Source of the DNA: Candidatus Bipolaricaulota bacterium
GTDB lineage: Bacteria > Bipolaricaulota > Bipolaricaulia > RBG-16-55-9 > DRXL01
DNA length: 64,000 nt
Direction: 5' to 3'
Assembly: GCA_025060395.1 (NCBI GenBank)
Contig: JANXCC010000008.1
Location: forward strand, 1 to 64,000
Positions 60,749-64,000 of the stretch are shown piece by piece. Within the stretch, counting starts at the first letter, position 1. Every line of letters begins with the position of its first letter. Under the pieces are notes generated by a model. It made no database searches. It was not told the origin of the DNA and was given only the letters and a program-made list of their open reading frames with translations. A program made the translations under genes and the position numbers.

Positions 60749-60823
60749 GGGCCGTTAGCTCAGTGGTAGAGCACCTGCCTTTTAAGCAGGGGGTCGCAGG
60801 TTCGATCCCTGCACGGCCTACCA
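60749..60823 (+). tRNA. tRNA-Lys (UUU anticodon)
   Basis: Acceptor GGGCCGT/ACGGCCT (first pair G-U), D-arm GCTC/GAGC, anticodon stem-loop CCTGC-CTTTTAA-GCAGG, T-arm GCAGG-TTCGATC-CCTGC, then A and an encoded CCA (60821-60823). Its minus strand was read as the N-terminal extension of the M16 peptidase frame, which is not a real coding part. Confidence 0.96.
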
Positions 60824-60871: not shown

Positions 60872-60901
60872 TTGATCTCGCTGAGGGGCTGCCAGTATAA
60901 T
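60872..60901 (+). promoter_or_regulatory. Promoter of the helicase gene
   Basis: TTGATC, 18-base spacer, TATAAT. Predicted start near 60908; AGGGGG lies five bases before the ATG at 60945. Confidence 0.6.
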
Positions 60902-60944
60902 CTCTTCCAGACCCTGCTAAGTACGGCTCAGCTAGGGGGCTTTG

Positions 60945-63900
60945 ATGGAGCCAGAGCATATCCACGTGAATGAGATTCTCGAGAGCGACTACTGGCCTGA
61001 GCCTGTACGTGTGCTCAGCCTCCAAGCCTTTGGGGAGTGCGTGCAGATCGAAGCTGTCGGCACCAGAACTCAGCAGTTCTATTCACGCATCTTCTCGCTT
61101 GCTGAGCTGGCCCAGATCCGACGTATATCTGCGACTACCCGAGACTTCCAAGGCCATGCTGAAAAATTCTTTCTAACTATAGAAGCTCATCGCATTCGTT
61201 ACGCGCAACAGTTCGACCCGCTCTTTGCCGTGAGCGTCTCCCAGATCGATCCATTGCCCCATCAGATCGAAGCTGTTTATTTTTATATACTTAAGAATCC
61301 CAAGATTCGCTTCTTGCTCGCCGATGACCCCGGCGCGGGCAAGACAATCATGGCAGGGCTGCTCCTCAAAGAGCTGAAGTACAGGGGCTTGGCGCAACGA
61401 ATCCTCATCGTTGTGCCAGGGCATCTCAAAGACCAATGGCTCCGAGAGCTGAAAGAACGCTTCGATGAATCTTTTGTCGTTGTGGATCGCGCGGTCATGA
61501 ACGCTACGTGGGGGCGCAACGTCTGGTGCGAGCACTCTCACGTCATCACGTCGATGGACTTTGCCAAACAAGATGACGTGATGGCCGCTCTCGCCGAAGC
61601 CCGCTGGGATATGACGATTGTGGACGAGGCGCACAAGCTTGCGGCCTATCGCTACGGCGACAAGATCACCAAACGGGAGCGCTATCGTCTGGGAGAGCTG
61701 CTGTCGCGGACGAGTCAATTCTTGCTCTTCTTGACAGCTACGCCCCATCGTGGCGATCCCGAAAACTTCCGACTCTTCTTAGATCTTTTAGAGCCCGGAT
61801 TCTTCGCCTCGATCGAGGTATTAGCCCAATCTGTCCGCGATCGGGACAATCCATTGTTTTTGCGTCGCCTCAAGGAAGATCTCTGCGACTTCGAGCGCCG
61901 GCCACTCTTCCCTAAGCGCTACGTCTTCACCATCCCGTATTATTTAAGCGATGAGGAGAAACAGCTCTATAACGCCGTCACGACCTATGTTGAGCGCGCG
62001 TACAATAAAGCGCTAGCGGCCGAGAAGCGCAACGTCGCGTTCGCGCTGCTCATCTTGCAAAGACGCTTGGCTTCGAGCGTGCGGGCTGTCCGGCGCTCCT
62101 TGGAACGGCGCACTGCGCGCTTAAAGGAGCTCTTGCGCGTGGGGCAGTGGCTGGCCGAACGCGAAGAGATCGACGAAGACGCGCTCGAAGATAGCGAAGA
62201 GCTCGAGCGCTTGCGCCAAGAAGAAGAGCTCGTTGAGCGCCTGACGGCCGCTGAGACGCACGAGGAACTCCAGGCAGAGATCGCTCAGCTTGAAGAGCTG
62301 ATTCGACTAGCTAAGCAGGCTGAGCGCCGCGAGATCGAGCGCAAGCTCGAAGAGCTCCGGAAAGTGATGGAAGAAGAGCGCCTCCGGCAGACCGGCGAGA
62401 AATTGCTCATCTTCACTGAGTCGCGGGAGACGCTCGAATATCTCGTGGAGAAGCTCAGATCGTGGGGCTACTCTGTGGTGGGCTTGCACGGGGGACTCAA
62501 TCTCGATGCGCGCATCCGCGCCGAGCACGAGTTTCGCGAGCACGCCCAAGTCATGGTCTCCACCGAAGCCGGCGGCGAGGGCATTAATCTTCAGTTTTGC
62601 TCGCTGATGGTCAACTACGACATCCCCTGGAACCCCAATCGTCTCGAACAGCGCATGGGACGGATTCACCGTTACGGCCAGACAAGAGAAGTCCATATCT
62701 ATAATCTTGTGGCGCTCGACACCCGCGAGGGCAAGGTCTTGGACGCGCTCTTTCGCAAGTTGGCTCAGATTCAAGAAGCCCTCGGCAGCGACCGGGTCTT
62801 CGACGTCATCGGCGAAGTCCTTCCCGGGCGTAGTCTCAAAGAGCTCATTGTCGAAGCGATCGCCAACCGTCGGACGCTAGACGAGATCGTGCGCGAGATC
62901 GAGGCTATTCCCGACCGCGAGGCCGTAGAGCGAGTCCGGCAAGCGGCTCTAGAAGGGCTGGCGATCCGCCACCTCGATCTGCAGCGCATTCTGGGCGAAG
63001 AACGTAAGGCACGGGAGAACCGCCTTGTGCCAGAGTATATCGAAAAGTTCTTCGAGCGAGCCTGCCGCGCGCTAGGGATCTCCTTAGAACGCCGCGCCGA
63101 CGGCCTGTGGCGCATACCCCATGTGCCGTATGAACTTCGTAACATCCCTCGTTCGTTCAAGGATCGCTACGGAGAAGTTTTCTCAAGCTATGGCAAGATC
63201 GCTTTTGAGAAGGCCCAAGCGCGCTCAACGCAAGCCATCTTCGTTGGGCCGGGGCATCCCCTGCTCGAAGCACTCATCGAGCAGATTCTCTTTCGGTCTG
63301 GGGAAGAGGTGCGGCGCGGGGTGACGTTTGCCGATCCCGATTCTAAGCTCAACGGATTCCTTTGGTTCTTAGAAGCTGAGATCCGTGATGGTCTCAATGC
63401 AATTGTTGGCAAAAGGCTCTTTGCCCTCTACCAGCCTCTCCAGGGCGAGTGGCGTGTGGTCCACCCTTCGATTCTGTGGGATTTGAGGCCTCTTACTCCG
63501 GAGGAGTCGGGCGCTCTGGCCGTTGGCCCGGTGAGCCTGAACGAAGGACAAGCCGTGGCGTTTGCCATTGAGAACGCGCTGACAAGCTACCTACACGAGC
63601 TGAGGGCACAGCGGGAGCGCGACGCCGCGATCAAGCGCAAATACGGCCTGCGCTCGCTGGAACAGATGATCCTTGAGTCCGAAGCGAGGCTCAGCGAGTA
63701 CGAGACGCGCCGCGCTCAGGGGGAGGCTATTCCTGAGCCAACGATCCAGAATGAGCTGCGCCGCAAGGAAGAGCTGGAGGAGCGCAAGCGTTCTCTCGAA
63801 GAGACGATCATAAGAGAGACCAGTCTCACTCCGGCCACGCCGCGCGTCCTGGGGATAGCTCGCGTCGTTCCTGCGCAACTTGTGGATAGCCTCGCTGAAG

Positions 63901-64000
63901 CGATGCGCTCTGATCCCCAGATCGAAGCCATCGGCATGGAGATCGCCATGGCCTATGAGCGCGCCGAGGGCCGCAGCCCAGAAGACCTCTCCAAGCAGAA
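60945..64000 (+). CDS. SNF2-type helicase, partial, probably with C-terminal DUF3883 (defence-associated type)
   Basis: 1018 codons, open at the window edge. Q-motif-like LPHQIEAVYFYIL, Walker A DDPGAGKTIMAG (127-138), VVPGHLKDQWLREL, DEAH box VDEAHKLAAYRYG (D227), FLTATPHRGDPENFRLFL, a long charged coiled coil (about 400-480), then the helicase C half with LIFTESRETLEYLVEKL, STEAGGEGINLQFC and QRMGRIHRYGQ (569-579). The last readable part (IGMEIAMAYERAEGRSPEDL) looks like the beginning of DUF3883. Large helicases of this plan are common in anti-phage islands (DISARM DrmD-like, or beside DUF1156/DUF499 genes). It has its own promoter. Confidence 0.85.
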   Translation, partial: MEPEHIHVNEILESDYWPEPVRVLSLQAFGECVQIEAVGTRTQQFYSRIFSLAELAQIRRISATTRDFQGHAEKFFLTIEAHRIRYAQQFDPLFAVSVSQIDPLPHQIEAVYFYILKNPKIRFLLADDPGAGKTIMAGLLLKELKYRGLAQRILIVVPGHLKDQWLRELKERFDESFVVVDRAVMNATWGRNVWCEHSHVITSMDFAKQDDVMAALAEARWDMTIVDEAHKLAAYRYGDKITKRERYRLGELLSRTSQFLLFLTATPHRGDPENFRLFLDLLEPGFFASIEVLAQSVRDRDNPLFLRRLKEDLCDFERRPLFPKRYVFTIPYYLSDEEKQLYNAVTTYVERAYNKALAAEKRNVAFALLILQRRLASSVRAVRRSLERRTARLKELLRVGQWLAEREEIDEDALEDSEELERLRQEEELVERLTAAETHEELQAEIAQLEELIRLAKQAERREIERKLEELRKVMEEERLRQTGEKLLIFTESRETLEYLVEKLRSWGYSVVGLHGGLNLDARIRAEHEFREHAQVMVSTEAGGEGINLQFCSLMVNYDIPWNPNRLEQRMGRIHRYGQTREVHIYNLVALDTREGKVLDALFRKLAQIQEALGSDRVFDVIGEVLPGRSLKELIVEAIANRRTLDEIVREIEAIPDREAVERVRQAALEGLAIRHLDLQRILGEERKARENRLVPEYIEKFFERACRALGISLERRADGLWRIPHVPYELRNIPRSFKDRYGEVFSSYGKIAFEKAQARSTQAIFVGPGHPLLEALIEQILFRSGEEVRRGVTFADPDSKLNGFLWFLEAEIRDGLNAIVGKRLFALYQPLQGEWRVVHPSILWDLRPLTPEESGALAVGPVSLNEGQAVAFAIENALTSYLHELRAQRERDAAIKRKYGLRSLEQMILESEARLSEYETRRAQGEAIPEPTIQNELRRKEELEERKRSLEETIIRETSLTPATPRVLGIARVVPAQLVDSLAEAMRSDPQIEAIGMEIAMAYERAEGRSPEDLSKQ

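Follow-up and report, generated by a model that had tools for sequence, protein, structure and literature searches.

What system does the large helicase gene near the end of this contig belong to? The stretch of DNA that we analyzed (the window) is 64,000 nucleotides from a Candidatus Bipolaricaulota bacterium. An open reading frame on the forward strand, with a possible TTG start at 60942 or ATG start at 60945, stays open up to the window's end. The initial annotation described it as an SNF2/DUF3883-type helicase with its own promoter, lying behind a tRNA gene and opening a likely defense island. Window coordinates are the same as those of the contig (C85), which ends at 65844, 1.8 kb beyond the window. 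The gene, hmaA (60945–64000 within the window), runs to a stop codon at 64277, and its complete product has 1111 amino acids. The helicase is real: Pfam identifies SNF2-rel_dom, Helicase_C, and NOV_C (DUF3883; residues 994–1082, E = 8.7e-25). A profile search with just the 1019-amino-acid part within the window did not detect NOV_C because this domain (63921–64187, forward strand) is almost entirely past the window's edge, with its first 80 bases (63921–64000) inside.

A tRNA-Lys(ttt) gene (60749–60823, forward strand) does lie upstream, 121 bp from hmaA, and it forms the left boundary of the island. Between the two genes is a promoter-like site, TTGATC-18-TATAAT (60872–60901, forward strand), which matches the consensus. 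Both hexamers are unchanged in the sister species G002, while the spacer around them has otherwise diverged. We consider this site to be a candidate promoter, so the promoter proposed for the helicase is putative.

To which family does the helicase belong? Among the PADLOC models, HmaA matches best over the full length (E = 2.6e-220, residues 65–1100 of 1111). In PADLOC, the Hma system comprises the helicase HmaA, the methylase HmaB, and the ATPase HmaC (PMC8565338). The corresponding Type-1 DUF499-centred BREX-related (BR) system is named in the main text of a 2026 survey (PMC12839542). The helicase had been expected to fall in a DrmD-like and DUF1156/DUF499-associated group. The second half of this expectation held up, as HmaA is the best model and HmaB and HmaC are the partners (see below). 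The first half did not. If the helicase were DrmD, then this would be a DISARM island with DrmA, DrmB, DrmC, and the methylase DrmM. DrmD shares the SNF2 helicase core and ranks second among the PADLOC families (E = 6.6e-159), and the best NCBIfam match is DISARM_DrmD. However, that match has just 356 bits versus a cut-off of 610 (a second DISARM model: 250 bits versus 950; 1019-amino-acid part), and the NOV_C tail suits HmaA instead. Also, a search for the DrmB marker MZB (PF09369) found no match in this genome, which is 88% complete, while a control search was positive in 8 of 14 genomes. Neither DrmB nor phospholipase D, both of which were suggested as island parts, was seen on the island. 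DISARM is also contradicted by HmaB and HmaC, which the insertion carries at its far edge. We consider DISARM to be extremely improbable. BrxHII from BREX type 3 is a homologous helicase (PADLOC E = 1.8e-116), but HmaA is a much better fit, and this locus has a nuclease tail and a DUF499 ATPase instead of BrxC.

HmaA retains its catalytic residues. The closest solved structure to the helicase is RapA, and the Walker and SF2 helicase motifs are invariant in an alignment of 50 relatives (50/50). Similarly, D1035, E1049, and K1051 (L105 numbering) are invariant in all 50, and these form the D...ExK signature of PD-(D/E)XK nucleases. AlphaFold modeled the NOV_C region with a pLDDT of 88.6. When this model was compared to PDB with Foldseek, it matched proteins with the PD-(D/E)XK fold with probabilities of 0.97–0.99 and E values of only 0.01–0.1; the best matches were VRR_NUC, Hjc, I-Ssp6803I, a tRNA splicing endonuclease, and EcoRV. 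By E value the fold match is weak, but the predicted structure is consistent with the C-terminal domain being a PD-(D/E)XK nuclease. DUF3883 was previously termed a REase domain and is fused to SNF2 helicases that adjoin DUF499 genes (PMC3710099). According to the main text of the survey, an active C-terminal PD-(D/E)XK domain is present in 79% of Type-1 BR taxa (PMC12839542).

If the helicase is HmaA, then hmaB and hmaC should be nearby. The initial annotation predicted that a methyltransferase and further defense parts would lie beyond the window, and suggested reading the next 15 kb for genes such as those encoding DUF1156 and DUF499. Because C85 ends at 65844, the sequence breaks off well before the end of these 15 kb. 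By synteny, we located the expected genes at the start of another contig (C4:1–4329), where they match the HmaB and HmaC models. The C-terminal 560 amino acids of HmaB are present (E = 7.5e-86), followed by HmaC, which has about 875 amino acids (C4:1702–4329; HmaC model, E = 8e-149; DUF499, PF04465, E = 5.9e-55). Thus, the methylase and the DUF499 ATPase were recovered. A profile search for DUF1156 found no match in this genome assembly, because that part of HmaB falls in the assembly gap; HmaB itself is present. As HmaB lacks its first ~360 residues and the end of another gene (described below) is also missing, the gap between C85 and C4 is at least ~1.2 kb.

The gene that follows hmaC explains why these contigs can be linked. 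Just 3 nt downstream of hmaC, at C4:4333, is an epimerase-like gene, which we named as an NAD-dependent epimerase from its N-terminal sequence. In two other members of the genus, G003 and G005, the same gene directly follows tRNA-Lys, and both of these genomes lack the helicase. The assembly of G002 is split in the same way: the helicase gene follows tRNA-Lys and the contig then ends, and hmaC runs from the end of another contig up to the same epimerase. So the insertion has hmaA at one edge and hmaB and hmaC at the other, with the assembly gap in the middle. The simplest reading is a single insertion with the order tRNA-Lys, hmaA, a β-CASP nuclease gene, the gap, hmaB, hmaC, and epimerase, with the join between C85 and C4 inferred from synteny. 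The order of the three hma genes is as described for Hma (PMC8565338), and most loci from other phyla, where the contig is long enough to show it, also have the order HmaA-HmaB-HmaC. This locus differs in having a β-CASP gene behind hmaA and in being split over two contigs.

Alternatively, the helicase could be an orphan RapA-like SNF2 protein that acts independently of HmaB and HmaC, with the β-CASP gene as its sole partner or unrelated to it. Contig C85 itself shows only the helicase and the broken β-CASP gene, as this explanation would predict. However, this genome has HmaB and HmaC at the corresponding edge of the insertion, as G002 has HmaC, and in close relatives, a DUF1156 gene is directly behind the helicase. 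An orphan helicase is therefore very unlikely. Instead, the gene content and the domains (a Swi2/Snf2 helicase with a C-terminal PD-(D/E)XK domain, a DUF499 ATPase, and an N6-MTase, as in the Type-1 BR systems described in the main text of PMC12839542) indicate that an Hma system very probably lies between tRNA-Lys and the epimerase gene. Both the proposal of a defense island at the window's edge and the prediction of further parts beyond it are supported. The genes downstream are not ordinary housekeeping genes: a β-CASP nuclease follows the helicase, and then HmaB and HmaC on C4.

Nor do all relatives carry the helicase at this site. The G003 and G005 sequences are homologous around the M16 peptidase gene and tRNA-Lys until about 2 bp past the tRNA, after which comes the epimerase-like gene. 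Overall, the island is present at the tRNA-Lys site in two of the four members of the genus that can be read there (this genome and G002) and absent from the other two (G003 and G005). The site is not readable in G001, where the contig ends, or in G004, which has no matching M16 gene. (In G001, at L090, C70:8–82, a tRNA-Val(gac) gene precedes the M16 gene, where the other members of the genus have tRNA-Lys.) The occupied and empty sites imply a moving unit that is bounded on both sides. The idea that the tRNA is an integration point for the island fared less well. The island is behind tRNA-Lys and the site is empty in two relatives, but we did not find the classical signs of integration at a tRNA: the best match on C4 to the 25-base tail of the tRNA has 8 mismatches, so there is no direct repeat at the far boundary, and no integrase gene was seen on the parts of the island that are readable on either side of the gap.

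Within this order, the three closest distinct hmaA sites (L007, L038, and L005) are beside different tRNA genes, namely tRNA-Val, tRNA-Met/Ala, and tRNA-Lys. Two close relatives have 77% identical helicases: that of G015 is beside tRNA-Val, and that of G018 is beside tRNA-Met/Ala in the opposite orientation. As a general rule for Hma, adjacency to a tRNA can be rejected: outside of the close Bipolaricaulota clade, no tRNA lies in the 600 bp upstream of hmaA at any of 65 loci. Across the class, DUF499 is found in 26 of 100 genomes.

We also compared the proteins to their relatives. Full-length HmaA is 45–77% identical to several relatives that have HmaB and HmaC. Between this genome and G002, HmaA is 91% identical and HmaC is 80% identical. 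The ratio of non-synonymous to synonymous codon differences between these two genomes is 0.28 for hmaA, the same as for the neighboring M16 gene (0.28), and HmaC changes faster, with a ratio of 0.67. These values fit a functional system with a putative fast-evolving recognition part.

The remaining gene in the insertion is less expected. Beyond the window, just 7 nt after hmaA, there is a gene for a β-CASP nuclease that is split into two pieces (C85:64285–64722 and C85:64793–65842) and that runs nearly to the contig's end at 65844. A single frameshift separates a part of 145 codons from a second part of at least 350. Either the gene has recently become a pseudogene or the consensus sequence contains an error. 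The metal-binding motifs are complete (SHAHLDHCG, VDHSIPGA, YTGDLRLHG, LHASGH, and PVHTEH). Among named proteins with solved structures, the closest are RNase J. Like the RNase J family, the β-CASP gene has the MBL and RMMBL signature and all of the metal ligands. However, the C-terminal piece scores just 65.6 bits, versus a cut-off of 400, so we rejected RNase J proper; this is a separate family.

Could the β-CASP gene be an ordinary housekeeping nuclease of this lineage that merely adjoins the insertion? In other Bipolaricaulota, members of the family do stand alone, beside genes for YedK, TldD, or ABC transporters, and most relatives in the class have syntenic housekeeping genes around them. 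However, the gene is inside the insertion, immediately behind hmaA, and this genome's own YedK is elsewhere (on C11). Also, it is just 50–61% identical to the copy in G003, while the M16 gene is 86–90% identical across the genus, which implies that the β-CASP gene is not a vertical ortholog of the copy in G003. Furthermore, just 15 of 100 genomes in the class contain relatives, and the family is present on plasmids of thermophiles as well. A housekeeping role is thus rather unlikely. Most likely, the β-CASP gene encodes an auxiliary nuclease carried by the Hma locus as a passenger, or did so until recently.

The position of the gene is compatible with this. Among 58 Hma loci that have hmaA and hmaB on one contig, over half (33/58) have more than 250 bp between the two genes, which implies that the β-CASP gene occupies a slot for auxiliary genes. 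The interval is a hotspot (loci L105–L184), and in many cases it contains genes such as those for OLD/AAA_15 (OLD-type ATPases), SIR2, or Schlafen-AlbA proteins, or unannotated genes. We did not find a second β-CASP gene in this slot, either among 80 Hma loci or in the loci from the class, other than the one described here. Just one of the 80 loci, which is archaeal, has a β-CASP gene, and it is outside of the slot (650 bp from HmaC). So there is no support for β-CASP proteins being regular passengers of Hma. Auxiliary nucleases are usual in Type-1 BR loci, and the main text of the survey describes them as auxiliary and backup effectors (PMC12839542). The kinds named there are PD-(D/E)XK, HNH, HKD, HEPN, PIN, Schlafen, and TOPRIM/OLD; β-CASP/MBL nucleases, such as the one at this locus, are not named in that main text.

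More broadly, this RNase J-like family of β-CASP proteins, with about 530 amino acids, is common to Bipolaricaulota and to plasmids of Thermus, Thermococcus, Rhodothermus, and Methanothermobacter (L050, L073, L077, L118, and L252–L257). Seven plasmids of thermophiles carry it. Among the six that we read, several carry genes close by for restriction, Avs, AbiE, CRISPR, or a methylase. Among viral contigs in IMG/VR, no members of the family were confirmed. In G046, the β-CASP gene is directly before a BrxHII/DrmD-like helicase that is accompanied by a DrmM-like methylase. In G080, a piece of a β-CASP gene is beside a fragment of a DruE-like helicase, as identified by PADLOC; by eye, this 1056-amino-acid neighbor had seemed to be DrmA-like, which we rejected. 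The stand-alone β-CASP gene in G014 (L079:8779–10311) is broken by an in-frame stop codon. One other locus (L085, G070:C57:1–12874) has genes that are 97–99% identical to proteins from a Thermus plasmid (L257), so contig C57 probably represents Thermus contamination of the G070 bin. We tentatively suggest, as a possibility that we consider doubtful, that these β-CASP proteins are a separate mobile RNase J-like family of thermophiles whose members act as auxiliary effectors for Hma and for other defense systems with a helicase and a methylase.

The Hma system itself is already described, and by analogy to the family, we predict an anti-phage role for the system in this bacterium. HmaB would methylate adenines in the host's DNA and thereby protect it. 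HmaC, a BrxC-like AAA+ ATPase, would build a complex that scans DNA. Upon recognition of foreign DNA that lacks the modification, HmaA would translocate along it and cut it with its PD-(D/E)XK domain. An intact β-CASP protein would provide a second line of defense by degrading RNA or DNA. These findings show that an Hma gene set occurs in Candidatus Bipolaricaulota and that, within the genus, its site can be either occupied or empty. They also add β-CASP nucleases to the kinds of genes that are found between hmaA and hmaB, as a candidate auxiliary effector that may degrade RNA or DNA.
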